Below are positions 24,135 to 47,871 of a DNA stretch of 48,258 nt, piece by piece. The DNA comes from Planctomycetales bacterium (GTDB lineage: Bacteria; Omnitrophota; Gorgyraeia; Gygaellales; Profunditerraquicolaceae): positions 1 through 48,258 of the forward strand of contig SBBM01000058.1 of the NCBI GenBank assembly GCA_005239725.1, in the 5' to 3' direction. The position numbers and the translations under genes are program-made. The notes under the pieces are model-generated. The model searched no databases. It had not been told where the DNA came from and saw only the letters and a program-made list of their open reading frames with translations. Each line of letters begins with the position of its first letter. The first letter of the stretch is position 1.

Positions 24135-25322
24135 CTATTTAATCTTTGCCGCGAACTCTTTTCCGTATTCATAGCACCGCCTGATTTCATTCTCATCAGG
24201 GACGTATTTTGCGGAAAGTGAAGGCTGGGCAATTTCAATCCCTGTTTCTTTAAGGATGGCCTCGATAGAATCCACTGCCCCGCCTGCCCAGCCATAAGAG
24301 CCGAATGCCGCAGCAATCCTGTTTTTCGGCTTTAGGCCCTTGAGGAAATCCAGGAAACCCGCAATATTGGTAAGCATGCCATTGCCATGGGTAGAAGAAC
24401 CTATGACATAGCCTTTAGCATCAAGCATTTCTTTAACCACTTCACTGCGGTCGGATTTGGCGATGTCAAAGAGTTTGACGGCTATCCCGGAATCGGTTAA
24501 ACCCTGGACGATATTCTTTGCCATCTTTTCGGTTGCCCCCCACATCGTCTCATAAACCACAACAACCCTGGGCTTTGTCGCATTTTTTGCCCAGGACACA
24601 TAAGCATTTATAATCTTTGCCGGTTCTTTGCGCCAGATAATCCCGTGGCTGGGGGCAATCATTTTTATAGGGATATTCAAATTCTTTATTTCTTCTATTT
24701 TCTTTAAAATTATCGAGCCCAGAGGGATAAGGATATTGGCATAATATTTTTGCGCCTCATCCATAAGCGCACACATATCAACCTCATCATCAAACCTCTC
24801 GGAGGTAGCGTAGTGCTGGCCAAAGGCGTCATTAGGCAGAAGCAATTCTTCCTCCGGGCAATAGGTGAACATGCTGTCCGGCCAATGAATCATCGGCGCT
24901 TCGATAAAGGCCAAAGACCTTTTGCCTAAACTTAATTTATCCCCTGTCTTTACTACATGGAAATCCCAGTTCTGGTAATAATGCCTGAACAGGCCTTCCT
25001 TGCATTTTGCCGTGCAAAAGACTTTCGCGTTAGGCAAAAGTTTCATAATCTCAGGCATTGCACCCGAATGGTCTATCTCCACGTGGTTGGCAACAATATA
25101 ATCTATTTTTCCCGGGGGAACGATATCCCTTATTTTTTGAATCAACTCTCCGGCAAAAGGTCCATAGACAGTATCCACTAAAGCAATTTTTTCATCTAAA
25201 ATCAGGTAGGCGTTATAGGTGGTCCCTCTTTTTGTGCTATAGGTGTGGCCGTGGAACTCGCGGACATTCCAATCCACCGCGCCTACCCAGAATATGTCTT
25301 TTTTAACTTCTATTTTATTCAT
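24135..25322 (-). CDS. Flavodiiron protein (rubredoxin:O2/NO oxidoreductase)
   Basis: A 395-residue two-domain enzyme. The metallo-beta-lactamase-like domain (about 1-245) carries the diiron ligands His80, Glu82, Asp84, His85 (NHVEIDHSG), His146 and Asp165, plus a later His (APSHGI). The flavodoxin domain (about 250-395) begins VVVVYETMWGATEKMA. It reduces O2 to water or NO to N2O using rubredoxin, encoded next. The ATG at 25322 is chosen over an in-frame ATG five codons upstream because GGAGG sits 8 bases before it. Confidence 0.95.
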   Translation of the reverse strand: MNKIEVKKDIFWVGAVDWNVREFHGHTYSTKRGTTYNAYLILDEKIALVDTVYGPFAGELIQKIRDIVPPGKIDYIVANHVEIDHSGAMPEIMKLLPNAKVFCTAKCKEGLFRHYYQNWDFHVVKTGDKLSLGKRSLAFIEAPMIHWPDSMFTYCPEEELLLPNDAFGQHYATSERFDDEVDMCALMDEAQKYYANILIPLGSIILKKIEEIKNLNIPIKMIAPSHGIIWRKEPAKIINAYVSWAKNATKPRVVVVYETMWGATEKMAKNIVQGLTDSGIAVKLFDIAKSDRSEVVKEMLDAKGYVIGSSTHGNGMLTNIAGFLDFLKGLKPKNRIAAAFGSYGWAGGAVDSIEAILKETGIEIAQPSLSAKYVPDENEIRRCYEYGKEFAAKIK

Positions 25323-26545
25323 TTCTTCAACCTCCATTTATTGCTATACAAGAGGCGCAAAGCTACTCTTATAATTAACGGGTCAAATTGCGACCAGGAG
25401 CCTTTCTTTAATTCATCTATGGCTTTTTCTAGGCTTAATGCCTTCCTGTAGGAACGGTCAGACAACATTGCGTCTATGGCATCGGCAACCGCGATTATCC
25501 TTGCCCCAAGCGGAATATCCTGGCCTTTCAAACCTCCGGGATACCCCATCCCATCCCAGAATTCCTGCGCTGCCCCCACAAGCGGAGCCAGGTCTTTTAG
25601 CGCCTCCACGGAATCCGCAATTTCATACGAAATAAATGCGTGCCTCTTTATTATTTTCCACTCTTCCCCGCTCAAGGGGCCCGGTTTATCCAGGATATAA
25701 TTGGGTATCGCTACCTTGCCAAGGTCATGCAGATAGCCGGAGAATTTTATCTTTCGTACTTCTATCTTATCAATACCCATCGCCTCGGCTATATCATGCG
25801 CGTAAAGCGCAACCCGTTGGGAGTGCTGGTGCGTATAATGGTGTTTACCGTCGATTATGCGGCTGAAAATCTTTAATATTGTCTCGAGCGAATCCCAGGA
25901 AATATTGGCTTTCGGCTCAGGCACGGATTTAATCACTCCGCTAAAAACGGATTTTACTTTTTCATCCTCATCTATAGCCAAAAGGAATTCTCCGCCATCT
26001 CTCTTATAGGCATCCGAAAAAATATCGTATATTTTCTGCGAAAACTCTTTTCCTTTCTGCTCGCGGCAATATTGCGCGATACCTTCCTTATCAGGCTTGG
26101 GCCTGCGGCGCATTAATAGGTCTATGCTGTCGGCGAGCCTTATAATCTGGGCATTAAATAAAATCTTATTTTCTTTTTTGCCCTGGGGATAACCTGAACC
26201 GTCATAACGTTCATGATGCTCCAGAATAAAATCCGCGCCCCTGGCCAGTCCGGGGATTTCTTTTACAATATCGGCGCCGATAGCAGGGTGTATTTTTATA
26301 GCCGGGGTTTCTTTTTGTATGCTAAGGTCGGGGTAATTTATAATGTGTTCCCCCACTCCGAAAATACCTACGTCGTGCAAAAGCGCGCTGTAAAAAATAA
26401 CCCCATTTTTATCTAATCCGGATGCCCCTGTCAGATAACGCGAAACCAGGGCCACCCTCCAGGCATGGTAAATATTCCCCTTTTCCTGGTAATCTATTAC
26501 TAAAGAAAGGGCAGGCAGCATATCGCATAAAAGGCATTTCAGCAT
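25319..26545 (-). CDS. Tandem HD-GYP protein (cyclic-di-GMP phosphodiesterase family)
   Basis: A 408-residue protein with two HD modules. The first (about 20-150) has HD at 57-58 and a full HHERYDGSGYP (110-120). The second (about 230-400) has HSQRV, HD at 273-274 (LHDLGKVAIP) but its GYP motif reads AAQEFWDGMGYP, so the HHE metal/substrate ligands are lost. I infer that one half is catalytic and the other regulatory. No sensor domain is attached. The start overlaps the upstream flavin-reductase fragment (ATGCTGA) and has GGAG. Confidence 0.87.
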   Translation of the reverse strand: MLKCLLCDMLPALSLVIDYQEKGNIYHAWRVALVSRYLTGASGLDKNGVIFYSALLHDVGIFGVGEHIINYPDLSIQKETPAIKIHPAIGADIVKEIPGLARGADFILEHHERYDGSGYPQGKKENKILFNAQIIRLADSIDLLMRRRPKPDKEGIAQYCREQKGKEFSQKIYDIFSDAYKRDGGEFLLAIDEDEKVKSVFSGVIKSVPEPKANISWDSLETILKIFSRIIDGKHHYTHQHSQRVALYAHDIAEAMGIDKIEVRKIKFSGYLHDLGKVAIPNYILDKPGPLSGEEWKIIKRHAFISYEIADSVEALKDLAPLVGAAQEFWDGMGYPGGLKGQDIPLGARIIAVADAIDAMLSDRSYRKALSLEKAIDELKKGSWSQFDPLIIRVALRLLYSNKWRLKK

Positions 26546-26760
26546 ATCTTCTCCTTTGCTAAAATTGAGATAGCAAAAGAAGAACTGAACTCAATAAATT
26601 CATGAGTAAGGTTAAGTTTATTGATGCTTATTGCGATAGTTACGGGCTGGCTGGTAACTTGAAATGCGGTATTTACGATTTGGGCATTAAATGACTTATC
26701 CTTATAGGAGGAAACAAGATACATCCCATAACTTATATTGTGCAGCACATTTATGTCCAT
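26539..26760 (-). pseudogene. N-terminal fragment of a flavin reductase/flavoredoxin-like protein
   Basis: Only 73 residues remain of a domain that is usually about 160. ALHxISYG-like NVLHNISYGMYLVSS (5-19), QIVNTAFQVTSQPVTIAISI (27-46) and NLTHEFI (50-56) match the start of FMN-binding flavin reductases that feed flavodiiron proteins or rubredoxin. It stops within the FMN domain at KEKIC, fused at the stop to the HD-GYP start. A deletion most likely removed the rest. Confidence 0.65.
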
Positions 26761-26832
26761 GGCGCACCTTTTTTGCCGGCAAAAATTAAAATTACCACAA
26801 AAAAACAGGGATTACAAGCATTTTTGGAGAAT

Positions 26833-27675
26833 TTATCCTGCCTTTTCGCCTTTAATGGTGATAACGGTTTCCTTAAAAGGTATTTTTTTACCCGAAGCGG
26901 AAATCGCCGACTGAATAACGCCTACCAAACCGAAACAACAAGGCACTTCCATATGGGCGTAGGTTATGGATTTAATATTATTTACTTTGAATATTTCCTT
27001 AAATTTCTCTTCATAGAAAGCCGCATCATCAAGCTTGGGGCAACCCACAAGCAGGGTCTTGCCCTTAAGTAAATCCCGGTGGAAATCAGGATAGGCAAAA
27101 GGCACGCAGTCCGCGGCAATCAACAAGTCCGCATTATTCAGGTAAGGGGCATTAGGCGAAACAAGGGTAATCTGAACCGGCCACTGCCGCAATTGCGATA
27201 CGCCTTTTGTTGCCGGGCCTTCTTCCTTGACCTCTGCCTCCTGCCTAAAATCCATTATCCGCGAACCCGGGCATCCTGAAAGCCCATGTTCATGTTTATG
27301 CCTCAGGGCCTCGGAATCTTCCAGGGGGACCCTTACTTTCTTTTCTTTAAGGTAACCCACTGCTTGCTTGAGGTATTCATCCTGATTATGGCCTTTTAAA
27401 TGCTCGAGGTGAGCCTTTATCACGCCGGGGCCCTGCTTTACGATGTTAGCCATAACTTTTCTCTCATCATACTCTTCTGCCTCTCTCTCTTCAATTGTAA
27501 TTGCGCCTTTAGGGCAGTGGCCAAGGCAGGCGCCTAATCCGTCGCAGAATAAATCGCTGATAAGCCGGGCCTTCTTGTCTATAATCTGTATCGCGCCCTC
27601 AGGGCAATTCGGGATGCATAAACCGCAACCGTTACATTTCTTTTCGTCAATCTTTATAATCTTTCGTTTTGCCAT
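26833..27675 (-). CDS. 2[4Fe-4S] ferredoxin-domain protein of an anaerobe-specific family
   Basis: A 280-residue protein. The N-terminus holds two clusters (CNGCGLCIPNCPEGA at 14-28; a second CxxxxxCxxxCP at about 44-55). The rest (about 130-280) carries cysteines GLSGCPGSR, ADCVPFA, VGCPKLD and VPCCFG, so further metal or thiol chemistry is possible. Similar proteins occur near redox-stress and hydrogenase genes in anaerobes; the function is not established. It follows the hemerythrin-like gene and could be an electron donor to the nearby reductases. Confidence 0.8.
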   Translation of the reverse strand: MAKRKIIKIDEKKCNGCGLCIPNCPEGAIQIIDKKARLISDLFCDGLGACLGHCPKGAITIEEREAEEYDERKVMANIVKQGPGVIKAHLEHLKGHNQDEYLKQAVGYLKEKKVRVPLEDSEALRHKHEHGLSGCPGSRIMDFRQEAEVKEEGPATKGVSQLRQWPVQITLVSPNAPYLNNADLLIAADCVPFAYPDFHRDLLKGKTLLVGCPKLDDAAFYEEKFKEIFKVNNIKSITYAHMEVPCCFGLVGVIQSAISASGKKIPFKETVITIKGEKAG

Positions 27676-27704
27676 GGCAGTTATCTCCTTTTAAATACAC
27701 CTTA

Positions 27705-28124
27705 TCATTCGGATTTATCGACAAGGTAATATAATTCATTATCCTCTTTTATGATTCTCGCTGAAAGGGCATCGAATATAGCCGTAGTCTCTTTAATAAA
27801 CCATTCAGGATTTTCTCTAATGAAGGTTGGTCCCGCCCATCTGTCAGTGTATGCCGCGAATGCTTTCTTTATCCCACCCATCTCATCAATAAATTTCTGA
27901 GCCGTCTGGCGGACAGACTCATTTCTGCTTTTAAGGAGACTCGGATATAACACATCATCTTCCATGGTCAGATGGACACTGAGTTTCCCCGCCAATGTCG
28001 CTAAAAGCGTACGCACTCCTTCGGCATCCCTTAGAAGATCGTTTTTATTCAACGAGGCTGTTATCTGTTTAACCAACCCGACTAATCCTTTGTGCTGTTC
28101 TCTGAACCTGTCTGTGCGCTTCAT
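27705..28124 (-). CDS. Hemerythrin-HHE-like protein with reduced ligand set
   Basis: A 139-residue four-helix protein of the hemerythrin type. The ligands that can be seen are His11 (EQHKGL), His51 and Glu55 (VHLTMEDDVLYP) and a C-terminal Glu (IIKEDNELYYL). Only two histidines occur in the whole protein, so the usual diiron site of five histidines is incomplete. It may bind metal differently or act as a helper. Located between an Rrf2 regulator and a ferredoxin, probably under that regulator. Confidence 0.8.
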   Translation of the reverse strand: MKRTDRFREQHKGLVGLVKQITASLNKNDLLRDAEGVRTLLATLAGKLSVHLTMEDDVLYPSLLKSRNESVRQTAQKFIDEMGGIKKAFAAYTDRWAGPTFIRENPEWFIKETTAIFDALSARIIKEDNELYYLVDKSE

Positions 28125-28138
28125 TTTTCCCCCCTCTC

Positions 28139-28549
28139 TTATCTGCCGTTAAACGAAGCTAACGACTTTACGGTAATCGGCTTCAACTGTTCAACTACCT
28201 TTTCTTCAACTACGCTCAAACTGTTTCTTAATGCGCATGTACCGGTGTTGGGGCATATCTTCCTCCTGAATAAACACTCGGCTAAAGTAAATTGTCCCTG
28301 AAATATTTCGATTAAATCAACCAGAGATATTTCTTCAGCGGCCCGGGCCAATTCAAAGCCTCCGGATTTTCCTTTATAAGACTTGAGCACGCCCTTCTTG
28401 TTCAAAATCTGCAGTATCTTCCTTAAGAAAGGCCTGGGCACCACTAATGCATCAATAAGTTCGCTTGCCGGGACTATCCTTTTCCCCGACCGTGATATGT
28501 ATATAAGTGCCCTTACTGCGTAATCCGTATTTTTCGTTATTAGTTTCAT
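28139..28549 (-). CDS. Rrf2-family iron-sulfur regulator (IscR/NsrR-like)
   Basis: A 136-residue winged-helix repressor. HTH residues are in SELIDALVVPRPFLRKILQI (29-48). Cys92, Cys99 and Cys105 (CX6CX5C) match the cluster-binding loop of IscR/NsrR proteins, so it likely senses NO, oxygen or Fe-S status. The ATG at 28549 is chosen because GGAGGG sits 4 bases before it and the family start MKLITKNTDYAVRAL begins here; an upstream in-frame ATG falls within the promoter. It heads the hemerythrin/ferredoxin group and faces away from the hydrogenase operon end. Confidence 0.92.
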   Translation of the reverse strand: MKLITKNTDYAVRALIYISRSGKRIVPASELIDALVVPRPFLRKILQILNKKGVLKSYKGKSGGFELARAAEEISLVDLIEIFQGQFTLAECLFRRKICPNTGTCALRNSLSVVEEKVVEQLKPITVKSLASFNGR

Positions 28550-28567
28550 TTGCCCTCCACTAATAAA

Positions 28568-28596
28568 ATGATACCATATTAGTATCATTTTGTCAA
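28568..28596 (-). promoter_or_regulatory. Rrf2 promoter with internal palindrome
   Basis: TTGACA (28591-28596), 17-base spacer, TATCAT (28568-28573). Between and over these lies a perfect 7-bp inverted repeat ATGATAC-N7-GTATCAT (28568-28588), well placed for autorepression by the Rrf2 protein. Promoter parts are visible; the binding is inferred. Confidence 0.7.
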
Positions 28597-28605: not shown

Positions 28606-29787
28606 TTACGCTCCCAGGTCGGTAGGGGCGCGGCCGATGGATTGCAGCAACTGAAGTATTGAGTTGATTCTTTTTTCCGGCGGGGTATCTATGCCTGCCC
28701 TATCCGGATAAATCTCATAAAGGCGGCGGTATTTTTCCGGGGTAACATTTATCATCAGGGAATTTGCCCCTGCCATAAGCCCAAGCCTGAGCGCATTATC
28801 CTTATCCAGTGTTTCCAGGGCAGTAGTGACCAGAATCCTTGCCTGAGGAACGCTCATGCGCGCTTCGGCGATGGTATTTAGAACCGATTCCAACGCGGGT
28901 CTGGGATGAGCGGCTAAAGGCGTTTCGGGATGGGGAATAAATGGCCCGAAAGAAAACATCTCTGCGCCTAAAGAATGGGTCAATTTAATATCGTTCAACA
29001 CATCTTCTTTTGTTTGCCCGGGTAAACCGAGGATAAACCCGCTCATGATAATGTAGCCCTTTTGGCGCAAGCGCTTAATCAAATCAATGCGGCTTTCCAA
29101 AGAGTGGCCGGGCTTGACTTGTGAATATATTTTGGGATTACTGGTTTCAAAACGGAGAAGGGCGCTGCGCGCCCCGGCATCATAAAGCTTTTCATAAGTC
29201 GCAAACGGACGCTCCCCGATACTTAAGGTAATTAAACATGGGCTTTTTTCTCTTATCTTATTTACAATTTCAAGCAGCCGCTCCTCGCTATACCAGGCGT
29301 CCTCACCGGATTGAAAAACTAATGCCTTGAAATTAAGCTTATTTACCGCATAATCCGTGGCCGCCAATATCTCATTTATACTCATGCGGTAGCGGGTAAG
29401 TTTCTTATTATCCGGGCGTAAACCGCAATAAAGGCAGCTGCTGGTGCAATAATTGGAGAATTCGATTATCCCGTGGATGCAGCAGGAGTTCCCGTGGTAT
29501 TTCTGGCGCAGGGCATTGGCGGATTCATAAAGATCAGTAGGTTTTTTTGAGGCGAGCTTCTCGTCAATCTCCTGGAGTTTAAAAAATAACTCCTTCCAGG
29601 TTTCCAATATGGAAAGCGCCTCGGCTTCGGATACTTTCTGGACTACGAACCCGCCCTGGGCATAAATGTAGTCGCCCAGGGAAAGCGCAAAAAATTCATT
29701 CCGGGCTTTCCGCTTCTCTCCGAAGTAGTCAACGGTAATATTATTGTCTTTTATCTCCAGGATTTTACCCGGGATTGCGTAGCACAT
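28606..29787 (-). CDS. HypC-HydE fusion: [NiFe] chaperone joined to [FeFe] radical-SAM maturase
   Basis: A 393-residue protein. Residues 1-72 are a HypC/HupF chaperone: MCYAIPGKI with the essential Cys2, VDYFGEKRKA, LGDYIYAQGGFVVQKV; the usual His of the VHxGFA segment is Gln44. Residues from about 85 on are HydE: radical-SAM cluster Cys114/118/121 (NYCTSSCLYCGLR), RYRMSINEI, QSGEDAWY, LRFETSNP, GLPGQT, GPFIPHP. Total length equals one HypC plus one HydE. It is the last gene of the group 4 [NiFe] hydrogenase operon, directly after HydG with no gap. HypC carries Fe(CN)2CO for [NiFe] sites, HydE processes the HydG-made Fe(CO)2(CN) unit for [FeFe] sites. The fusion suggests transfer of a HydG/HydE product to a [NiFe] enzyme (inference). 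Confidence 0.92.
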   Translation of the reverse strand: MCYAIPGKILEIKDNNITVDYFGEKRKARNEFFALSLGDYIYAQGGFVVQKVSEAEALSILETWKELFFKLQEIDEKLASKKPTDLYESANALRQKYHGNSCCIHGIIEFSNYCTSSCLYCGLRPDNKKLTRYRMSINEILAATDYAVNKLNFKALVFQSGEDAWYSEERLLEIVNKIREKSPCLITLSIGERPFATYEKLYDAGARSALLRFETSNPKIYSQVKPGHSLESRIDLIKRLRQKGYIIMSGFILGLPGQTKEDVLNDIKLTHSLGAEMFSFGPFIPHPETPLAAHPRPALESVLNTIAEARMSVPQARILVTTALETLDKDNALRLGLMAGANSLMINVTPEKYRRLYEIYPDRAGIDTPPEKRINSILQLLQSIGRAPTDLGA

Positions 29788-31161
29788 TTAAAAATAAAGG
29801 TCTCTTTTGCCTTTTGCGATTTTGCGCAAACGCTCCTGCGTCTGGCGCTGCAATTCCTTGTCTTCTATTTTATCCAGATAAAAATTAATCAAATCGCCGT
29901 ATCTCCTGCGCGCGCCATTATGGACAAAATCCTCTATATATTCGGCAAAGGTGAGAATTCCGTTTGCACGGCAGAACTTATGTATCTCTCCGGGCTTAGA
30001 AAGCCCCATAAATGCTTCTCCGGTGCGGCCGCGGCGGTAACAGGCAGTACAAAAACTCGGCAGGAATCCATCTTCAACCACACCCTTGATAACCTCCCCG
30101 AGTTGCCTTTCGTCCTGGATATTAAATTGCGGCTGGCTGTCGCTTTTTCCGTAACCGCCGGTTGTGGGACAGGAAGCAGCCGAAGCCTGGGAAATACCAA
30201 TTCTAAATGCCTTCTTTCGCATTTCAGGCGTCTCGCGCGTGGAGATAATCATGCCGGTATAAGGCACAGCGATTCTTAAGACGGCAATAAGTTTTAGAAA
30301 ATCCTCATCGCTTACCAGGTATTTGGATTTTAAATCAACCGAAGGCGCCGGCTGCAGGCGCGGCACGGAAATGGTATGCGGCCCGACTTTATAAGTTTTG
30401 TCCAGATACTGCGCGTGGGCAATCACGGACAAAACCTCAAAACGCCAATCGTATAAGCCGAATAAGACACCCAGGCCAATATCGTCTAATCCTGCTTCAA
30501 GCGCCCGGGAAGGCGCGTTAATCTGCCTTATGTAATCCGCCTTAGGCCCGCTATGCAACTTTTCATAAGTCGGGCGGTGATAGGTTTCCTGGAATAACTG
30601 GTAAGTGCCTACATTTGCTTTCCTTAATTTAGAGTAATCCTCTTTCGTAGTTGCGGCGATGTTTACGTTTATCCTGCGGATATTCCCTTTATCAGTCTTT
30701 ACCGAGTAAATCTTCTTTATAGCCTTTACGACGTAATCAATATTATTTTTTAGGGGGTCTTCTCCGCATTCAACCAACACCCGCTTATGCCCCATATTTA
30801 TCAGGATTTTAACCTGCCCTTCTATTTCTTTTAAGGAAAGTTTCTTGCGTTTTAATTCCTTGTTTCTGGCGTGGAAATTACAGTAGGCGCAGTCATTAAC
30901 GCAATAATCCGAAAGGTAAAGAGGCGCAAAAAATACCAGCCTTTCCCCGTAAATCTCATTCTTTACCCATCCGGCAGTATTAAAGAGCTCCTGAATGAGG
31001 GCCGGTTCTTTAAGATTAACCAGGGCCCCTGCCTCTTTAATGCTCAGGCCTTTTTTATTTCTGGCCTTTTTTAGTATGCGCCGGATATCCCGCTTAGACG
31101 GATTTTTTGTCCCGGCTAAAGCTTCTTCTATCTTTTTCTCGTCAATCATCTGCCCTGCCAT
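29788..31161 (-). CDS. hydG: HydG, radical-SAM tyrosine lyase making the CO/CN-iron unit
   Basis: A 457-residue enzyme that cleaves tyrosine to CO and cyanide on iron. Radical-SAM Cys87/91/94 (YCVNDCAYC), the dangler-iron His262 (GPHTISVPRL) and the C-terminal auxiliary-cluster cysteines Cys371, Cys374 and Cys397 (CTACYRRGRTGEAFM; KFCRANGILTF) are all present, which separates it from ThiH-type tyrosine lyases. It overlaps the protease gene by 20 bases and abuts the HypC-HydE gene. No HydF or [FeFe] hydrogenase gene is in the window. An ATG four codons in, after GGCAGGG, is a possible alternative start. Confidence 0.93.
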   Translation of the reverse strand: MAGQMIDEKKIEEALAGTKNPSKRDIRRILKKARNKKGLSIKEAGALVNLKEPALIQELFNTAGWVKNEIYGERLVFFAPLYLSDYCVNDCAYCNFHARNKELKRKKLSLKEIEGQVKILINMGHKRVLVECGEDPLKNNIDYVVKAIKKIYSVKTDKGNIRRINVNIAATTKEDYSKLRKANVGTYQLFQETYHRPTYEKLHSGPKADYIRQINAPSRALEAGLDDIGLGVLFGLYDWRFEVLSVIAHAQYLDKTYKVGPHTISVPRLQPAPSVDLKSKYLVSDEDFLKLIAVLRIAVPYTGMIISTRETPEMRKKAFRIGISQASAASCPTTGGYGKSDSQPQFNIQDERQLGEVIKGVVEDGFLPSFCTACYRRGRTGEAFMGLSKPGEIHKFCRANGILTFAEYIEDFVHNGARRRYGDLINFYLDKIEDKELQRQTQERLRKIAKGKRDLYF

Positions 31162-31624
31162 AAATCTTATATTTTTCCAGAAACCATGCGCTTAATTCCG
31201 CAAGCGCCCTTTCCACTTCCGGGCTTAATTTTTCGCCCAGGCTAATATCTTTCGGCTGCACCGCCAATAGATACATTCTGGCAAAGGTATTTTCTTTCAG
31301 GAAACCCACCAGCATCTGCGGCGAGGGGTTATGCGTAAAAAACAAATTCCCCGTTTCTATCTTTTCTAAATCCCGGAGCCGGAGCTGGCCGGGCTGAGCG
31401 CCGGAATCAAGCGCATCTACAAACAGGATAGTATCGGGTTGTTCGCGGATAATCCTGCCCAGGAAGTTCTCCGGGGCATTTGCAACTTCTTCCACTGCAA
31501 GGGTAATTCTGTTCTTCAGCCTCTTGGCCAAAAGGCAACCAAAGGCATCGTCGCTGCGCAAAAGATTACCTACCCCCACAATAACTACCTTACCCTGCAG
31601 GGCCTGAGTTAATTTCTCTAACAT
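31142..31624 (-). CDS. [NiFe] hydrogenase maturation protease (HycI/HyaD family)
   Basis: A 160-residue endopeptidase that removes the C-terminal tail of a [NiFe] large subunit after Ni insertion. Visible: GVGNLLRSDDAFG (metal Asp), FVDALDSG (second Asp) and FTHNPSPQML (His). Being in the group 4 operon it should cut that large subunit after Arg360 (CTER). The ATG at 31624 is used; a TTG at 31645 would add seven residues. The start codon region overlaps nothing; the 3-prime end overlaps hydG. Confidence 0.88.
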   Translation of the reverse strand: MLEKLTQALQGKVVIVGVGNLLRSDDAFGCLLAKRLKNRITLAVEEVANAPENFLGRIIREQPDTILFVDALDSGAQPGQLRLRDLEKIETGNLFFTHNPSPQMLVGFLKENTFARMYLLAVQPKDISLGEKLSPEVERALAELSAWFLEKYKIYGRADD

Positions 31625-31648
31625 CAATCTGCGGCCTGTTTTCAATGC

Positions 31649-32257
31649 TCAAGACTTAAGGACTGCCTGCCTGCGGCATCTGGGACAGAGTATCTGGAAG
31701 CGGTCGCTACGCAGAACTGGGGGCATTTTCGAGGGTTGCGGAGCAATCTCAGCTAAAGACTTTTCTCCGAAGAAATACAGCATTAAAGAGGTATTCGCAA
31801 ATGCCAGCGGCCCTAATTTCCTGGCTACCCAATCTATCTGGTCCCGGGGAGCAATAATTTCCTGGCAACCGCCGCATAAAAACAGTTCTTTTTCTATTGA
31901 CTGCTGCAGGACATCCCTTTTTTCGGTAGTGGCTAAATCAAACTCATTGCTTAAAATAATCCCTTTTTCCGTGGGGCAATTAAGCTGGCACTGTCCGCAA
32001 CAGATACACATATCCAGCCTGATTTTTAAGGTGCGCTTAGGAGTAGCGCCCTCTGCTTTATCCTCAAAACTTAAGCATTTTGCCGGACAAACCTCCACGC
32101 AGGCAGCGCAGCCGATACAGTCTTTCTCGTAGAAATATGGCCTGCCCCGGAAAGCCTTCGCAGGGACATGCGGCTCATAGGGAAATTTTGCCGTGTAAGG
32201 GCCTTTGATGAGCGCTCTTATAGCTTCTTTTAATTCGCGCAGTTTAGGATACCTCAT
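31649..32257 (-). CDS. NuoI/MbhN/HycF-like 2[4Fe-4S] subunit with extra Cys pairs
   Basis: A 202-residue electron-entry subunit. Two ferredoxin clusters (Cys47/50/53 with Cys94; Cys84 or 86/87/90 with Cys57) carry electrons to the hydrogenase small subunit. A C-terminal part adds CGGC (128-131) and CPRC (191-194), a likely zinc or additional cluster site absent from NuoI. Overlaps mrpG by 4 bases. In Mbh-type complexes this subunit takes electrons from ferredoxin. Confidence 0.87.
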   Translation of the reverse strand: MRYPKLRELKEAIRALIKGPYTAKFPYEPHVPAKAFRGRPYFYEKDCIGCAACVEVCPAKCLSFEDKAEGATPKRTLKIRLDMCICCGQCQLNCPTEKGIILSNEFDLATTEKRDVLQQSIEKELFLCGGCQEIIAPRDQIDWVARKLGPLAFANTSLMLYFFGEKSLAEIAPQPSKMPPVLRSDRFQILCPRCRRQAVLKS

Positions 32258-32583
32258 TTTTTATCTTCCTCGTATTTATCGCAGACAGAGCCCTTGCAGA
32301 GCTTTACCCCCGATTTATGCGCCCCCCGGGCTAAGGCATGCGCGGCCACCGGAGAAGTCAAAAGTAAAAATATAATACAAAGGACCGCCTTAATGCCCGC
32401 GGGGCCAAAGCCTTTATACAAGATTAAGCCAAAAAGTATGCTGCAGGTGCCTAAAGTAACGCATTTTGTGGCTGCCTGCAGGCGGTTATAGACATCGGGC
32501 AGCCTGAGCAAGCCCAGGCAACCAAAGAAATCAAACCCTACGCCGATGACAATAAAAATAACCCCCAATGTCTCATTCATCAA
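32254..32583 (-). CDS. mrpG: Mrp antiporter subunit G / MbhC-like
   Basis: A 109-residue membrane protein with three helices (about 5-25, 38-60, 65-88) and the family signature FFGCLGLLRLPDVYNRLQAATK (split over 18-39). Part of the cation/proton antiporter module. Overlaps mrpF by 11 bases. A hydrophilic 20-residue C-terminal tail follows. Confidence 0.9.
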   Translation of the reverse strand: MMNETLGVIFIVIGVGFDFFGCLGLLRLPDVYNRLQAATKCVTLGTCSILFGLILYKGFGPAGIKAVLCIIFLLLTSPVAAHALARGAHKSGVKLCKGSVCDKYEEDKK

Positions 32584-32932
32584 AGCCTCTCCCCTCTAAA
32601 TACTTTGCCAAAGCCAGAGTAGAGATAAAACTCTGCAAGGCCCAGGCAATACCGATATCCAGATACCAGTCTCTGCCCGTGGGTATTTCTAAAACTGCGC
32701 AGAAACCTAAAATTAATATACCCAGGATATCTACCGCTACTGCCCTGTCCGCGGTGGTCGGGCCCCGCGCAATCCGCCACAGGCAAAACAAGGCGCAAAG
32801 GAAGAAAACCGTAAAACAGTGCTTCAGAAGCGGCGACTGCCACTCCATTAAAGAAGGAAGGGGATAAAAGAGAATTGCCCCTAAAACCGCAGTAATTGCC
32901 AATAACCCGATTAGCCAGCGTAGCCTTTTCAT
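32573..32932 (-). CDS. mrpF: Mrp antiporter subunit F / MbhB-like
   Basis: A 119-residue, three-helix membrane subunit with the conserved ARGPTTADRAVAVDILG segment (55-71). Works with subunits E and G in the antiporter. It has an additional N-terminal helix (about 7-28) compared with the usual 90-residue MrpF, so the start may be internal, but no better ribosome site is seen. Confidence 0.88.
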   Translation of the reverse strand: MKRLRWLIGLLAITAVLGAILFYPLPSLMEWQSPLLKHCFTVFFLCALFCLWRIARGPTTADRAVAVDILGILILGFCAVLEIPTGRDWYLDIGIAWALQSFISTLALAKYLEGRGFDE

Positions 32933-32938
32933 ATCTTC

Positions 32939-33433
32939 CTATTCAAATATGCGCGCTAAAATGCGCTCGAATTTTCCCGCAATAATTTCCGTTGCCTTCC
33001 GGATATCCTGGTCCTGCACATTAATCCAGTGAATATACAAAATACCCTCATCCTCATCTATATCCACGCTCATTGTCCCCGGCGTAAGGGTAATGGAATT
33101 TGCCAGAAAGGTCAGGGCCGTATCGGATTTGAGCTTCGTCTTTATCTTGATAATCCCCGGCTTAATCGGCAAATCCGGATGGATAACGCGGTAAGCCACA
33201 TCAATATTTGCCTTAATGCATTCCCAGATAAATAAAGGCGTATAATAAAGGAACCAGAGGTAACGGCTGGCTTGTTTAAAGGCGTGCGGCCTTTTTACAA
33301 ACATGTCGCCGGTAATAAAGGCCGCCAGCCCGCAGACAAAAATCCCCACTGCCAAATGCTGAGGGTCTACAGGCCAGGTTAATAACACCCAGACTAAAAA
33401 GGCCAGGCAAAATAAGATTATCCTGCTTTTCAT
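32939..33433 (-). CDS. mrpE: Mrp antiporter subunit E / MbhA-like
   Basis: A 164-residue protein with two or three N-terminal helices (about 5-42, 60-80) and a soluble C-terminal domain with NSITLTPGTMSVDID (about 112-126), the family hallmark. Sits 2 bases from the MrpD gene. Part of the ion-translocating module of the hydrogenase. Confidence 0.9.
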   Translation of the reverse strand: MKSRIILFCLAFLVWVLLTWPVDPQHLAVGIFVCGLAAFITGDMFVKRPHAFKQASRYLWFLYYTPLFIWECIKANIDVAYRVIHPDLPIKPGIIKIKTKLKSDTALTFLANSITLTPGTMSVDIDEDEGILYIHWINVQDQDIRKATEIIAGKFERILARIFE

Positions 33434-33434
33434 T

Positions 33435-34934
33435 TTATCTTATCGCACTAAAAACTCTTTCGGCGTAGCCGGTGCCTAACAATAAACAGTCGCTTGCGGA
33501 TTGAAGCAGCGACTTAAATAAAGGAGCGACGAGTAAACCGCTGGCTAAACAGGCTACGGCCAGAATGAGCATAGCTAAGCGCATTGCTAACGGGACTTCT
33601 TTTATTTTGGCCAAACCTTCGGGTAACTTACCCAGAAAGGCAAACCCGATGAATTTTAGATAATATGCCAGAGTCAAAATACTCACCAGAGCCGCTGCCA
33701 ACCCTAACCATAAATATCCGGCCTGGACCGCGGCCAGAATAATAATTAACTTGCTAAAAAATCCTCCTAAGGGGGGGAGCCCGGAAATCGCCAAAGACCC
33801 CACTATCCCCGTCGCTGCCGTAAAGGGCATCCCTTCTTTTAAACCGCCCAATTTTTTCAAGTCACGGCTTTCCGCAGAATACTCAATGGCGCCGGAATTC
33901 AAAAAGAGCAGGGATTTGAAAAAGGCGTGGTTAATGAGATGGAACAGGCCGCCAAAAATAGCTAAAGGGCTGCCTATCCCAAAAGCAAGAATAATGTAGC
34001 CTATCTGGCTCACGCTGGAATAAGCAAACATCCTTTTTATATCGCTCTGCCCTATTGCCAGAAATGCGCCCGCAACCATTGATACCGTGCCTAAGATAAG
34101 CAGGATAAAAAGCACCCCCTGCGAAACACCCAGGATATTAAAGAAGACCCGCGAGAGCGCGTAAACTCCCAGGACCTTGATAAATACTCCGGAGAGCATT
34201 GCCGAGATAGGCGCCGGCGCAGAAGGATGGGCATCCGGAAGCCAGGCATGGAATGGAACCAGGGCTGCCTTTAAGCCGAAGCCCGCCAGGAATAACACGG
34301 CCACAAAATTTAGCAGGAGCCCTGCGGGATGAGCGGCTAAAGTCCGACCGATATCCGCCATATTCAAAGTAGAAGTATAACTATATAAAAGGGCGATCCC
34401 CAAAAGGACAAAACTGGAAGCCAGCGAACCCATTACCGCATATTTAAAAGAGGCCTCTAATTCCTCCGCCTCAGTGCCAAAGGCAACCAGGGCATAAGAA
34501 GAAATGGAGGCAATCTCTAAGAAGACAAACAGATTGAATAAATCCCCGGTCACCATTATGCCGTTCATCCCTGCCAGCATCAGCATAAATAAGGTATAAA
34601 ATTTCCATTTATCCGTATACTTTTCCATATAGCTCAGGGAATAAAGAAGGACTAAGAAACTTACCGTATTCACCGTGCTCAACATAAGAGAACTAAGGTT
34701 GTCCACAGCCATGCAAATTCCTATCGGCGGAACCCACCCTCCCACTTTATAGACTAAGACGACCCCGGCCCGGGAGTTAAGAATCCAGAGGGTGAAAAAT
34801 GACAATGCCAGAAGCCCGAAACCCCCTGAAGTGGCAAGAAAATCCGCAAGGCGCCTGGATAGTTTTCCCACCAGAGAAATAAGAAAGGCTGCGCCTAAAG
34901 GGATAATCACAAAAAAGGGTATAAAATTATTCAT
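33435..34934 (-). CDS. mrpD: Mrp antiporter subunit D / MbhH-like proton-conducting subunit
   Basis: A 499-residue membrane protein with about 14 helices, of the NuoL/M/N-MrpD superfamily. The conserved helix-5 Glu (FVFLEIASISSYALVAFGTE, about 134-153) and Lys-bearing helix 7 region (FGLKAALVPFHAWLPDAHP, about 219-237) are present, as is the FGGLFHLINHAFFKSLLFL His-Lys helix. It is one of two such antiporter subunits in this operon. Confidence 0.92.
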   Translation of the reverse strand: MNNFIPFFVIIPLGAAFLISLVGKLSRRLADFLATSGGFGLLALSFFTLWILNSRAGVVLVYKVGGWVPPIGICMAVDNLSSLMLSTVNTVSFLVLLYSLSYMEKYTDKWKFYTLFMLMLAGMNGIMVTGDLFNLFVFLEIASISSYALVAFGTEAEELEASFKYAVMGSLASSFVLLGIALLYSYTSTLNMADIGRTLAAHPAGLLLNFVAVLFLAGFGLKAALVPFHAWLPDAHPSAPAPISAMLSGVFIKVLGVYALSRVFFNILGVSQGVLFILLILGTVSMVAGAFLAIGQSDIKRMFAYSSVSQIGYIILAFGIGSPLAIFGGLFHLINHAFFKSLLFLNSGAIEYSAESRDLKKLGGLKEGMPFTAATGIVGSLAISGLPPLGGFFSKLIIILAAVQAGYLWLGLAAALVSILTLAYYLKFIGFAFLGKLPEGLAKIKEVPLAMRLAMLILAVACLASGLLVAPLFKSLLQSASDCLLLGTGYAERVFSAIR

Positions 34935-34936
34935 CG

Positions 34937-35275
34937 CTATCCGTGCAACCTCTTAATCTTGGTGATATCAAAAGTCCCGTATTTCTCGTAAATCCTGAGG
35001 GCAATGGCTACGATTAAAGCCGTGACTGCCAGGCCGATAACTATCGCCGTGAGCACCAGGGCCTGCGGGATGGGGTCAACCATATTCTCTATTGCCTGAT
35101 TGGGGCTAAGTATGGGCGAACGGCCGGCCATTTTATAACCGACGAGGACAAAAAATAAATTCACCGCATATTCAATAATACCTAAGCCGATGACAATCTT
35201 GATGATATTTCTCTTACGCAGGGTGCAATAAAGCCCGATGGAGAATAAAACTAAGCACAAGAAATAAACGCTCAC
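34937..35275 (-). CDS. mrpC: Mrp antiporter subunit C / NuoK-like
   Basis: A 112-residue protein with three helices and the NuoK/MrpC signature IGLGIIEYAVNLFFVLVGY (29-47) containing the membrane-embedded Glu, and DPIPQALVLTAIVIG (67-81). Overlaps mrpB by 4 bases. Length is typical. Confidence 0.92.
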   Translation of the reverse strand: MSVYFLCLVLFSIGLYCTLRKRNIIKIVIGLGIIEYAVNLFFVLVGYKMAGRSPILSPNQAIENMVDPIPQALVLTAIVIGLAVTALIVAIALRIYEKYGTFDITKIKRLHG

Positions 35276-35718
35276 TTTTTCCTTCCCGTATTATTTAAAA
35301 TTAGCAGGGTAACAAAAATGCTAAACAGCCCTGCCCCTACCTTAAGGCAGATGGCGATATTGCACAAAGGGATAATCCCGGCGCTCAAAAGATGAAAAGG
35401 CATGCCCTTTTTGATGAAATTATAGAAAAAATACCCCCCGGAAAAACCCAATGCCGCGACGGATAAAAACATCAGCGCCCCTAAATTTTCTAAAAAAGCC
35501 GCCTTGGCCTGCGATAATTTCTTCAAGGCAGTTTCCTTGCCAAAGGCAATCATCAAGTGAATAAAAGCCAGGGCCATAATCACCCCCCCGGCAAAACCTC
35601 CGCCAGGGGTAAGGTGGCCGTGCAAGACGATATAAATGCCATAAAGAAAAATAAGCCCTACGGTAAGCCGGGTTATCGTCTTGACAATTATCGTCATCCC
35701 CTGCCTGGTCTCTTTCAC
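35272..35718 (-). CDS. mrpB: Mrp antiporter subunit B
   Basis: A 148-residue membrane subunit with four helices and the MnhB motif LHGHLTPGGGFAGGVIMAL (about 28-46). Overlaps the preceding and following genes by 4 bases each, as expected in a tightly packed complex operon. Confidence 0.92.
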   Translation of the reverse strand: MKETRQGMTIIVKTITRLTVGLIFLYGIYIVLHGHLTPGGGFAGGVIMALAFIHLMIAFGKETALKKLSQAKAAFLENLGALMFLSVAALGFSGGYFFYNFIKKGMPFHLLSAGIIPLCNIAICLKVGAGLFSIFVTLLILNNTGRKK

Positions 35719-36236
35719 TTTCTAATCCTTCCTACTTTGCGCATCACTGCCATTACGCCGATGACCGCGGTAAAAAGCACTGTGGCTTCCCCCAAGGTAT
35801 CGTAACCGCGGAAATCCAGGATTATTGCCGCCACTAAATTAGCCGCGCCGGTTTTGGCCAGGCCTTCTTTCAAATAAACCTCGGCTATGCGCATTATCGG
35901 CTTGCCGAATACCGGAAGGCTCTTCAGGGCAAAATAGGCAAAAAGCAAAAATACCGCCAGGAAAGAGAGAGTGGAAAGCGTGTTAAAAAACCACCTCCCA
36001 TCCTTGACTAACGGCAGGTCCTTATTGATGGTGGCGCGGATGAGAATAATCAAACACAATATCTCTACCACCAACTGGGTAATGGCCAGGTCCGGGGCTT
36101 TTAAGAGCAAGAATGACAGGGAAACCCCCAGGCCCACCGCGCCTACGGCAATCACGCTGGAAAGCAGGTCTTTTATTTCCACTGCCACAACTGCCGCCAC
36201 AATCATAAATAATAAAAGCAAGTGCAACTCTAGCAT
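35715..36236 (-). CDS. MrpA C-terminal / MbhD-MbhE-like subunit
   Basis: A 173-residue protein that joins a DUF4040/MbhD-like half (about 1-75; APDLAITQLVVEILCLIILI) to an MbhE-like half (about 80-173; LDFRGYDTLGEATVLFTAVIG). These correspond to the C-terminal part of MrpA, which in true Mrp is fused to the large antiporter domain; here that domain is the separate upstream protein. It links the antiporter to the hydrogenase module. Confidence 0.85.
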   Translation of the reverse strand: MLELHLLLLFMIVAAVVAVEIKDLLSSVIAVGAVGLGVSLSFLLLKAPDLAITQLVVEILCLIILIRATINKDLPLVKDGRWFFNTLSTLSFLAVFLLFAYFALKSLPVFGKPIMRIAEVYLKEGLAKTGAANLVAAIILDFRGYDTLGEATVLFTAVIGVMAVMRKVGRIRK

Positions 36237-36237
36237 T

Positions 36238-37914
36238 TTATTTTAGAAATAGGTAAAAAATCCCCATCATCCCCAGAAGGCACCAGACCAGGTAAGTCGG
36301 CAGCACCCCATTGTGCAAATAGCGCAAAAAATTAGTTACCCCAAAAATGAGGTCTTTGGCCTGATGATAAATATCAAAGGCGCCGGCCTCCGCCTTTCGG
36401 TAAATACCCCTGAGCACCCCCAATTCTTCTTTAACCGTGCGGTAAAATTCTGTGCCTGTCGGCCGGGCCTCTGCCGGGATATCTTCCGTGCCCACGTAAG
36501 GCTTATCCCTCCGGCTGAGCTGTTTAATGTTGCCGGAGCAGTAAATCAATAAGCCTGCCAGCATCCCGACGAAGAGCAAAATAGCGGCTAGGGCCGGTGC
36601 CCATAAGCCGAAGAATTCTATATTATTGCCTACTGCCGGCCCGATAAAATATTTCAAGGGCACCTGATAAGCAAATATGCCAAAGACAATACACAAAAGA
36701 GCCAGGACAAGCTGCGGGAACCACATCCATGCCGATACTTCTCTGACCTGCCTTTTGCTTAAAACTTCGCCCTGACCTAAAAATACTGCATGCAATAATT
36801 TTAAGAAAGAGGCCAGGGTCAGGGCGCTGCCGAATACCGCCGCTACCAGGCAAAGCAAATATACGGACATCTCCCATTTGCCGTTTGCCAATCGCCAATT
36901 GCCAATCAGACCCTGATAGACCATCCATTTAGAAATAAAACCGTTAAAAGGCGGAACCCCGGAAATGGATAAACTTGCTATCAGCGAGGATATATAGGTA
37001 AGCGGCATTAACCTGCTTAAGCCTCCCAGGGCATCCAGCTGGCTGGTTTTTGCGCGCTGCTCTACGCTGCCGGCAGTCAAAAATAAACAAGACTTATATA
37101 CGGCATTATTAAGCATATGGAAGATTCCGCCGGCAACACCCACAGGAATTCCCGTGCCTATCCCTAAAACCATATAACCTACCTGGGAAACAGCATGATA
37201 GCCTAATAGCCTCTTCATATTATGTTGAATTAAAGCCATCATTACCGCGGCCACGATGGTAAATGCGCCCGCCAGCATCAAAAACATATTCATCGTCCGG
37301 CTCATTACAAACATATCCAGAGAGACCCTCGCCAGCAAATAGATTCCCAGCAGTTTATCCAAAGAAGCCGGTAAGAATGCGGTTACCGGGAGAGGGGCAT
37401 TCTCGGCGCAATCGGGAATCCAGGTATGCAGCGGCATTGCCCCGGCCTTGGCAAAACAGGCCAGGGCTAAACAGAGGTAAGCCAGAACAGGCAGCAGAGA
37501 GGAAGCAGAGAGGGAAATTCTTATCTTATCCATCTCTAAAGTGCCGGTGAGACAATAAATAATAGCCGCGGCCAAAACCATCAGGGCATCTGCGCCGCCC
37601 ACAATAATCAAGGTTTTTTTCGCTGCCTCCCGCGCCTGAGGCCCGGCCAGGGCAATTAAAAGGTATAAGGTAATCCCTAAAAATCCCCAGGCTACCAATA
37701 GAAAAACTAAATTATTCGTCAGACAAACTGCCAGAGAAGCCAGGGACGTAAGTATAATATAGGTATAATACTGCCCTCGGCCGGGCTTGCCTCGCATAAA
37801 TCCTATAGAATATAGCAAGATAAGCACGGTAAAAAATATTACGCCTAATAAAACAAGACTGCTCAAGACATCTATTTTAAAAAGTCCGCTGTTAAATAAT
37901 ATCCGCTGTATCAT
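36238..37914 (-). CDS. NuoL/MrpA-N-like proton-conducting membrane subunit
   Basis: A 558-residue antiporter-like protein with about 14-16 helices. Conserved features: KAGAMPLHTWIPDCAENAP (about 162-180) and GGIFHMLNNAVYKSCLFL (about 262-279). A hydrophilic loop (about 455-520) precedes a final helix and recalls the lateral arm of NuoL in reduced form. It sits between the large hydrogenase subunit and the MbhDE-like protein and provides a second ion channel beside MrpD. Confidence 0.88.
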   Translation of the reverse strand: MIQRILFNSGLFKIDVLSSLVLLGVIFFTVLILLYSIGFMRGKPGRGQYYTYIILTSLASLAVCLTNNLVFLLVAWGFLGITLYLLIALAGPQAREAAKKTLIIVGGADALMVLAAAIIYCLTGTLEMDKIRISLSASSLLPVLAYLCLALACFAKAGAMPLHTWIPDCAENAPLPVTAFLPASLDKLLGIYLLARVSLDMFVMSRTMNMFLMLAGAFTIVAAVMMALIQHNMKRLLGYHAVSQVGYMVLGIGTGIPVGVAGGIFHMLNNAVYKSCLFLTAGSVEQRAKTSQLDALGGLSRLMPLTYISSLIASLSISGVPPFNGFISKWMVYQGLIGNWRLANGKWEMSVYLLCLVAAVFGSALTLASFLKLLHAVFLGQGEVLSKRQVREVSAWMWFPQLVLALLCIVFGIFAYQVPLKYFIGPAVGNNIEFFGLWAPALAAILLFVGMLAGLLIYCSGNIKQLSRRDKPYVGTEDIPAEARPTGTEFYRTVKEELGVLRGIYRKAEAGAFDIYHQAKDLIFGVTNFLRYLHNGVLPTYLVWCLLGMMGIFYLFLK

Positions 37915-39098
37915 CCTGACTTTTGCCCTTTAATTTCTTCTGTTTTCTTGCGGGAAAGCTCAACCAGATCCCAGCCGTTAAAAAGTTTACGCTCCGTCTG
38001 CCTATCTATGACTATGGTCCTTTCGGTGCAGCAATAACAGGGGTCTACGGCAGCCAAAGTAATGGCCGCATCAGAGATGGTCTGGCCTACTGCCGCCACT
38101 TTGTTGGAAGGCACGTTCATATAACTGGGCGCCCTGATTTTATGCCGGATGGGCGAATTTGTTCCGTCGGAACGCACATAGTGGAAGCACTCTCCGCGCG
38201 GGGCCTCTACGCGGCCTATGCCTTCGCCTGCAGGGATATCTTTTAGGTCCAGGTCTATCGGGCCTTTAGGCATCTTCTCCAGGCATTGGTTGATGATCTT
38301 GATAGACTCATACATCTCTAAAACTCTGACTACTAACTTGGCAAAGATATCTCCTTCCTTCCGCACAACCACATCCCACTCCACCCTATCGTAGACGCCG
38401 TAGGGGTCGTCTCTCCTGACGTCCATAGCCAGGCCTGATGCCCGCGCCGTCGGACCCACCACCGAATAATTAACCGCCTCTTCTTTGCTTAAAATGCCCA
38501 CTCCCTTTGTCCTGGCCTGGATTACCGGGTCATCCATTACCGCGCCCTTAAACATATTCAATACCGGGATAAGGTCATCGTTCATCTTTCTTACCCCGGG
38601 GATGTCTTCCTCTTTAATATCCCTCCTTACCCCGCCCACCTTCATCATCCCGTAGTTCTGCCTGTTTCCGGTAATCGCCTCTAAGATATCCAGCACCGGC
38701 TCGCGGTATTTCCAGGACCACATCCACACCGTATTATACCCGATAAAATGCCCGGCCAGGCCTAACCACAAAAGATGGCTGTGCAGGCGTTCCAGCTCCG
38801 CAATAATTGTGCGGATATAAAGGGCCCGCTCCGGGACCTCTATTTTTGCCAGGTCCTCCATCGCATTTACGTAGGCAAAAGGATGGGCGTTGGAACAAAT
38901 CCCGCAGATGCGCTCTACCAGATAAGGCGTCTGGTCATAGTGTTTGGATTCGGAAAGTTTCTCTATCCCCCGGTGCATATAGCCGATGACGATATCTATA
39001 TCCACCACTTTCTCCCCTTCGGTATATAGCCTGAAAAATTCCGGCTCTTCCTGCAAAGGGTGGTAAGGTCCTATGGGGATAACTACTTTATGGCTCAT
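37911..39098 (-). CDS. Group 4 [NiFe] hydrogenase large subunit
   Basis: A 395-residue catalytic subunit. All four nickel-iron cysteines are present: Cys65/Cys68 (RICGICSNAH) and Cys354/Cys357 (DPCYCCTER), so this is a real hydrogenase, not a Complex I NuoD. A 35-residue tail after Arg360 (TIVIDRQTER...) fits removal by a HycI-type protease, as for HycE. The ATG at 39098 follows GGAGAG; the in-frame ATG seven codons upstream has no such site. Overlaps both neighbours. The closest functional group is Mbh/Ech type by subunit company. Confidence 0.93.
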   Translation of the reverse strand: MSHKVVIPIGPYHPLQEEPEFFRLYTEGEKVVDIDIVIGYMHRGIEKLSESKHYDQTPYLVERICGICSNAHPFAYVNAMEDLAKIEVPERALYIRTIIAELERLHSHLLWLGLAGHFIGYNTVWMWSWKYREPVLDILEAITGNRQNYGMMKVGGVRRDIKEEDIPGVRKMNDDLIPVLNMFKGAVMDDPVIQARTKGVGILSKEEAVNYSVVGPTARASGLAMDVRRDDPYGVYDRVEWDVVVRKEGDIFAKLVVRVLEMYESIKIINQCLEKMPKGPIDLDLKDIPAGEGIGRVEAPRGECFHYVRSDGTNSPIRHKIRAPSYMNVPSNKVAAVGQTISDAAITLAAVDPCYCCTERTIVIDRQTERKLFNGWDLVELSRKKTEEIKGQKSG

Positions 39099-39540: not shown

Positions 39541-39541
39541 T

Positions 39542-41372: not shown

Positions 41373-41374
41373 TT

Positions 41375-43263: not shown

Positions 43264-43291
43264 ATTATAATACTTTCTGTTGCCTTGTCAA
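43264..43291 (-). promoter_or_regulatory. Consensus promoter of the group 4 hydrogenase operon
   Basis: TTGACA (43286-43291), 16-base spacer and TATAAT (43264-43269): both hexamers match the sigma70 consensus fully. It lies 34 bases upstream of the first gene and near the end of the group 3b protease gene. Confidence 0.8.
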
Positions 43292-43774: not shown

Positions 43775-43826
43775 TTCGACTAAGGCTTAAAGTGTCTAAT
43801 GGTGAGCTTAGTCGAACCATTAGACA
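43767..43826. repeat. Interlocking inverted repeats between hydA and the protease gene
   Basis: Three pairings share this segment: TTAGACAC (43767-43774) with GTGTCTAA (43792-43799); TTCGACTAAG (43775-43784) with CTTAGTCGAA (43807-43816); and an 11-bp TGTCTAATGGT (43793-43803) with ACCATTAGACA (43816-43826). The pairings exclude one another in part, so alternative hairpins can form. The units TTCGACTAAGCTCA recall an interspersed repeat known from other bacteria. It overlaps the hydA stop and the protease GTG start. Confidence 0.65.
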
Positions 43827-47849: not shown

Positions 47850-47871
47850 GTATAACCCCTTTCAATGTTTT

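Follow-up and report, generated by a model that had tools for sequence, protein, structure and literature searches.

The anaerobic source of carbon monoxide (CO) in [NiFe] hydrogenase maturation has been called the most pressing open question in a 2025 review, in which neither HydG nor HydE is mentioned (PMC12134894). This question is raised directly by a stretch of 48,258 nucleotides from a Planctomycetales bacterium placed by GTDB in the Omnitrophota (assembly GCA_005239725.1, contig SBBM01000058.1, positions 1 to 48,258), referred to here as the window, where a [NiFe] hydrogenase operon closes with genes for HydG and for a HydE-type protein, two maturases of the [FeFe] class. A preliminary description of this DNA, made from the sequence alone, had recognized this arrangement and proposed that the pair serves a [NiFe] rather than an [FeFe] enzyme, a proposal which the analysis presented here upholds. 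The HydE-type protein carries a HypC domain at its N-terminus, and HydG together with this HypC-HydE fusion very likely constitutes an alternative to HypCDEF that produces the iron with its diatomic ligands for the [NiFe] cofactor and delivers it. In many uncultivated bacteria and archaea, enzymes of the [FeFe] class, instead of HypD, HypE and HypF, seem to build the iron-carbonyl-cyanide part of the [NiFe] hydrogenases, which suggests tyrosine as the origin of CO in these oxygen-free cells.

The HypC-HydE Fusion and HydG

The cassette comprises three genes on the reverse strand, at the positions given in the preliminary description: a HycI-type large-subunit maturation protease (31142-31645(-), with a TTG start and matches to PF01750 and TIGR00072 over their cut-offs), HydG (29788-31161(-), 457 amino acids), a predicted tyrosine lyase for an Fe(CO)2(CN) unit, and the HypC-HydE fusion (28606-29787(-), 393 amino acids). 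All three had been described as packed by overlap, which holds for the protease and HydG (20 base pairs, bp), while HydG and HypC-HydE abut with zero gap.

The fusion was assigned through Pfam, NCBIfam, alignments and an AlphaFold2 model. It contains the Pfam domains HupF_HypC (residues 1-64), Radical_SAM and BATS, laid out as a HypC domain (residues 1-70), a long helix and a HydE barrel of the radical S-adenosylmethionine (SAM) type. The HypC part scores 51.6 bits against a cut-off of 28.5 for PF01455 and falls slightly under the cut-off for TIGR00074 (46.4 against 48), and the HydE part narrowly misses that of TIGR03956 (253.1 against 254.6; NCBIfam). The model is confident throughout (predicted local distance difference test 94.9, predicted template modelling score 0.93), and its barrel superimposes on Thermotoga maritima HydE (TmHydE, 3iiz) with a Z score of 43 and a root mean square deviation of 1.8 over 308 aligned residues; the structures 3iiz, 7o1o and 8qmk, the latter two with complex-B, all match at Z 42-43. 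Since the structural matches hardly cover residues 1-81, the HypC domain call rests on the Pfam and PDB sequence matches.

Several residues set the fusions apart. In classical maturation, the published iron ligands are HypC Cys2, HypD Cys41 and possibly HypC His51 (PMC12134894, PMC11565642). Cys2 is retained in 99% of the aligned fusions, whereas the histidine (E. coli H51) is replaced by glutamine in 85 of 85 (Gln44 in the window), as against histidine in 30 of 30 free HypC proteins. The radical-SAM motif CX3CX2C of the HydE part is present in all 85. At the position of Arg54 (T. maritima numbering), all 85 fusions have histidine, while arginine is found in 20 of 20 [FeFe]-type HydE sequences. 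A clade-specific Cys-Cys-x-His motif, in which Cys103 and His105 never vary among the 85 fusions and Cys102 is kept in 96%, is located in the strand directly preceding the SAM-cluster loop, where [FeFe]-type HydE has a mix of residues, an invariant arginine and valine or isoleucine, respectively, at the positions matching C102, C103 and H105. These cysteines and the histidine are candidates to stand in for the HypD ligand Cys41. A C-terminal CX7CX2C motif occurs in 11 of 19 [FeFe]-linked HydE proteins and in none of the 85 fusions. In one genome (G076, L092:13651-16398), a single open reading frame (ORF) of 915 amino acids encodes HypC, HydE and HydG as a triple fusion.

The identity of HydG is supported by a TIGR03955 score of 529 bits against a cut-off of 312 (NCBIfam) and by a nearly full-length alignment with a solved HydG (PDB 4wcx, E=2.5e-155). 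Both the CX3CX2C motif of the SAM cluster and the CX2CX22C motif of the auxiliary cluster are intact in the window sequence, as first reported, and a degenerate HydG was accordingly rejected. Among fusion-linked HydG proteins, the two motifs are kept in 60/62 and 58/62 sequences, respectively. HydG is predicted to cleave tyrosine and to form CO and cyanide on iron. A class of HydG of about 500 amino acids was also observed, in which CTAGYRC...C replaces CTACYR...C at the C-terminus with the second cysteine shifted by three, making a different auxiliary-cluster ligation possible; it is found in [FeFe]-linked and fusion-linked loci alike (L231, L232, L236-L239, L241, L242, L092, L139 and L179).

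Maturation Proteins in the Window Genome and Its Relatives

The genome from which the window derives (1.46 Mb, 79.9% complete) has its closest HydE and HydG relatives in Candidatus Omnitrophota, one of them (L103) from the same family. Profile searches of the genome gave neither a HydA hit nor a HydF match above its cut-off, so that no complete [FeFe] hydrogenase was found elsewhere and a role for HydG in supplying one was rejected. The same searches detected no HypD, and neither HypE nor HypF over cut-off. The preliminary description had expected these three proteins to be encoded in the genome, an expectation that the searches contradict.

The distribution was followed in 117 related genomes through profile searches with family cut-offs, of which 86 bear a [NiFe] large subunit. 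HypC occurs in two kinds, either free (ORFs of 67-111 amino acids scoring at least 80 bits, 56 genomes) or fused to HydE (ORFs of 289-917 amino acids scoring 42-67 bits, 20 genomes). HypD is over cut-off in 59 of the 117 genomes, with no overlap with the 20 that carry the fusion. Within the 86 [NiFe]-bearing genomes, HypD is found in 0/20 fusion genomes against 54/66 of the others (p = 1.2e-11), and HypE follows the same exclusion pattern (p = 3e-11), p-values that overstate independence, as the genomes are mutually related and mostly metagenome-assembled. HypE and HypF are over cut-off in none of the 20 (the window genome and 19 relatives), all of which have a [NiFe] large subunit, while HydG is found in 18. 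The fusion genomes span nine family labels and both HypC kinds occur inside single families (f1, f8); the pattern is therefore not the loss of one clade. Relatives keeping the operon and an active enzyme without HydG and HydE had been named as a finding that would speak against a dedicated route; the relatives without the fusion turned out to have HypD.

These counts bear on the form in which the maturation route was first proposed, namely that HydG and HypC-HydE provide CO only, with cyanide and assembly supplied by HypD, HypE and HypF from elsewhere in the genome. Such an arrangement would account for the HypC domain and would fill the known gap concerning the anaerobic origin of CO (PMC12134894), but it is made highly improbable by the finding of HypD in 0/70 genomes carrying HypC-HydE (these 20 together with 50 more distant genomes, described below) and of HypE and HypF over cut-off in 0/20; in the window genome itself, HypD/E/F encoded outside the window were sought and rejected as absent.

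A control is provided by 12 relatives that have both HydG and HypD, all 12 of which also have HydA. The sampled [FeFe] loci of the relatives contain conventional unfused HydE, mostly with HydF. Ordinary HydG and HydE therefore do not make HypD dispensable, and it is apparently the fusion that does. HydA is absent from 19 of the 20 fusion genomes, the exception (G003) carrying HydA and HydF. The 80% completeness of the window genome could be taken to favor the view that HydG and HydE are remnants of a lost [FeFe] system, or that they serve an [FeFe] enzyme missed in an incomplete assembly. This is scarcely credible given that the fusion relatives lacking HydA include near-complete genomes, that the relatives' [FeFe] loci pair HydF with unfused HydE, and that the fusion forms a conserved and separate clade.

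Breadth Across Phyla and Operon Contexts

A scan of the fusion alignment against 84,980 species genomes yielded 102 confirmed loci, of which the best 80 were taken; all 80 match from residue 1. The bacterial loci come from genomes labelled as Omnitrophota, Elusimicrobia, Lentisphaerae, Brocadiia, Scalindua, WOR-3, Firestonebacteria, Desantisbacteria, Saganbacteria, Spirochaetes, Chlamydiae, Atribacteria, Patescibacteria and others, anammox planctomycetes being among the carriers, and the archaeal loci to DPANN lineages (Micrarchaeota, Woesearchaeota, Nanoarchaeota, Aenigmatarchaeota and others). Most of these genomes are metagenome-assembled, and single binning errors are possible. Fifty further genomes from the best 80 loci, outside the 117 relatives, gave HypD in 0/50, a [NiFe] large subunit in 45/50 and HydG in 48/50 over cut-off. 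In 57 of the 80 loci, HydG and the fusion share a strand and lie within 500 bp of each other.

The cassette closes group 4 operons in the window and in L086, L100, L102, L107 and L180, and group 3b operons in, for example, L085, L093, L099 and L130. The role of HydG had initially been restricted to the group 4 enzyme; a group 4-specific role was rejected on account of these 3b operons. In one group 3b locus (L087:4194-6026, G062), the large subunit is fused with its own maturation protease in a protein of 610 amino acids, which raises the question of how the tail is cleaved. At another locus (L096), HydG and HypC-HydE adjoin a molybdopterin oxidoreductase, NrfD, an Fe-S protein and a 483-amino acid protein without a Pfam match, and L091 and L097 show the same gene order, with genes of matching size (the three loci correspond to G075, G084 and G085).

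The proximity of the cassette to a molybdopterin/NrfD operon without a hydrogenase in G075, G084 and G085, along with 5/50 distant genomes lacking a large subunit over cut-off, would fit a model in which the pair matures an unrecognized organometallic enzyme, the [NiFe] large subunits being without diatomic ligands or supplied otherwise. This model is very unlikely in view of the [NiFe] large subunits detected in 20/20 and 45/50 genomes, the many direct operon linkages, the membership of HypC in a [NiFe] chaperone family, and the retention in the large subunits of the cysteines and the APRG arginine, joined in group 4 by the C-terminal tail.

Evolutionary History of HydE and HydG

In the HydE tree, read without a root, a branch with a Shimodaira-Hasegawa approximate likelihood ratio test support of 100 separates the 85 HypC-bearing proteins from the other 19 sequences, so that the fusion probably arose once. 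The HydG tree built from the same loci requires nine changes of context, at least four of which are made unavoidable by branches with good support, and the fusion-linked sequences are nested among those linked to [FeFe] enzymes. HydG has thus switched more than once between the [FeFe] and the [NiFe] context, and its product is therefore probably common to both systems. On the simplest reading of the two trees, the fate of the iron unit would be decided at HydE. While the preliminary description drew attention to HydG, it is the HypC-HydE fusion, a single clade spread over many phyla, that constitutes the key feature, HydG being interchangeable with its [FeFe]-linked counterparts.

Probable Client Large Subunits

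The group 4 [NiFe] large subunit of the window (37911-39119(-); PF00346, PF00374 and motif positions) has the motifs RICGIC and DPCYCC, the APRG arginine, the APS serine and a C-terminal tail beyond the last CxxC for the protease. A comparison of 13 fusion-type with 15 HypD-type group 4 large subunits revealed no fixed residue difference, nor did one of 49 fusion-type with 7 HypD-type group 3 sequences, the latter number being small. Every group 4 sequence, from either kind of genome, retains the arginine and the serine/threonine adjacent to the cyanides, and we take these positions to contact the cyanides as in solved [NiFe] structures. The lack of a fixed difference, together with the retention of these residues, leads us to expect the usual [NiFe] cofactor in fusion genomes.

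The product of HydG contains CO and cyanide in a ratio of 2:1 (PMC12752695), which lends some plausibility to a variant active site, NiFe(CO)2(CN), where the HydG synthon would be used without ligand exchange. Considering that the group 4 comparison, the cyanide-contacting arginine and serine/threonine included, holds no fixed difference, this variant is unlikely, and an altered [NiFe] centre was set aside for want of a supporting large-subunit residue.

Proposed Maturation Route

From the presence, fusion and operon linkage of the genes, the absence of HypD, HypE and HypF and the conserved residues, all read directly in the sequences, we infer the chemistry of the route, the hand-over from HydG to HydE, the exchange of CO for cyanide and what the new residues do. 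HydG would cleave tyrosine to CO and cyanide and assemble an Fe(CO)(CN) unit. This unit would be received by the HydE barrel of the fusion, which would not dimerize it for HydF but rework it into an Fe(CN)2CO form and transfer this to the Cys2 residue of the HypC domain joined to it, C102, C103 and H105 being candidate substitutes for HypD Cys41. The HypC domain would then dock on the apo large subunit of a group 3b or group 4 enzyme and hand over the iron, after which nickel insertion and the HycI protease would complete the enzyme as usual. Given that HydF and HydA are missing and that HypC is attached, the likely path leads from HydG through the HydE barrel and HypC Cys2 to the apo large subunit. 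In its full form, this proposal probably describes a second independent route to Fe(CN)2CO in many bacterial phyla and in DPANN archaea, in which every CO and cyanide ligand comes from tyrosine through HydG and HypC-HydE acts as a scaffold-chaperone of the radical-SAM type, converting the HydG synthon before passing it on to the apo-enzyme, HypC being the sole part kept from HypCDEF.

A number of observations weigh against this route, in addition to the relatedness of the genomes, the incompleteness of the window genome and the few HypD-type sequences of group 3. The [NiFe] iron carries one CO and two cyanides, the reverse of the HydG product, and the exchange this would demand is not visible in sequence. 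Twelve relatives with a large-subunit match have neither system, although these are mostly incomplete assemblies. In two genomes (G093, 96% complete, and G162), HypC-HydE occurs together with a large subunit but with no HydG over cut-off, which may reflect an assembly gap or another source of CO and cyanide (loci L101 and L173), G117 has HypC-HydE with neither HydG nor a large subunit over cut-off, and G003 is without detectable HydG in a fragmentary assembly.

Organization of the Hydrogenase Operons

Upstream of the protease, HydG and HypC-HydE, and on the same strand, lie 16 group 4 hydrogenase and Mrp genes (31649-43229(-)), which include the large subunit described above. Starting from the cassette, these are a HycF/NuoI-type polyferredoxin identified by family profile matches (31649-32257(-)), Mrp/Mbh-like antiporter subunits MrpG, F, E, D, C, B and MbhD/E-like (32254-36236(-)), a NuoL/Mrp-type proton-pump subunit (36238-37914(-); PF00361, 7e-55), and, beyond the large subunit, NuoC-like, NuoB-like small and NuoH-like subunits (39088-40884(-)), followed, where the operon begins, by a CooF/HycB-like ferredoxin and FNR-like and Fe-S subunits (40881-43229(-)). 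Among the antiporter genes, the MrpD-like one (33435-34934) has a Proton_antipo_M match in Pfam and the others were named from size, order and membrane character; NuoC and NuoH were assigned by Pfam, and the NuoB-like small subunit was called from its sequence and from homologues in relatives. For Omnitrophota, the HydDB subgroup 4g has been reported (PMC10066038). A sigma-70-like promoter with a 12/12 consensus match precedes the operon (43264-43291(-)), and the next strong site (28596-28568(-)) lies past the operon end, ahead of an Rrf2 gene; as far as consensus matches can indicate, this agrees with the single promoter initially suggested for the 16 genes.

Immediately upstream of the group 4 operon is a second, group 3b-like [NiFe] operon (43301-48114(-)) encoding a protease, large and small subunits, FNR, an Fe-S subunit and a short HypA. 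The HypA-like ORF (47872-48114(-), 80 amino acids) matches no more than the N-terminal 68 of the 112 HypA positions and lacks the zinc part with its CxxC, and comparably short forms occur in related operons. Downstream of the cassette (24135-28588), genes for an A-type flavoprotein, an HD-domain protein, a ferredoxin-like protein, hemerythrin and an Rrf2 regulator suggest protection from oxygen or nitric oxide beside the hydrogenases.

Relation to Known Systems and Significance

The system resembles HypCDEF (with HypAB) in its HypC domain with an N-terminal Cys2, its client enzymes, its proteases and a HypA-like protein, but HypD, HypE and HypF are absent and the HypC domain, whose histidine is changed to glutamine, is joined to a radical-SAM HydE. 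With HydEFG it shares a HydG with both cluster motifs and the HydE fold (Z 43 to TmHydE), while differing in having a [NiFe] client, no HydF or HydA in 19/20 genomes, and a HydE with an N-terminal HypC, the Cys-Cys-x-His motif and no equivalent of the Arg54 of [FeFe]-linked HydE. A third comparison is offered by HypX, whose substrate is a formyl-group donor. Like HydG here, HypX is an enzyme dedicated to supplying CO for the iron of the [NiFe] site, but it acts with HypCDEF under oxic conditions (PMC6802093), whereas HydG is predicted to act on tyrosine and HypDEF are gone, in accordance with the distinct route first proposed.

A 2020 survey of the candidate phyla radiation reported a HypC-like family beside [NiFe] hydrogenases, with no mention of HydE, HydG or a maturation route (PMC7304191), and this family is possibly the same HypC-HydE fusion. 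In the open literature searched (open-licence papers, no preprints), no description was found of HydG or HydE acting with Hyp proteins, or of a HypC-HydE fusion. Every part belongs in or at the edge of a known family, and it is the combination, along with the loss of HypDEF, that is new in this literature.

Two maturation systems that have been thought separate are hereby joined, and the anaerobic source of CO becomes testable, given that widespread lineages without HypD (and without HypE and HypF where tested) carry a CO- and cyanide-making enzyme in the hydrogenase operon. Genome surveys that use hypD as a marker miss [NiFe] hydrogenases that are likely to be working. The two proteins would constitute a compact cassette for heterologous [NiFe] hydrogenase production, and they offer a maturation route for the enzymes of DPANN archaea, Patescibacteria, Omnitrophota and anammox bacteria.

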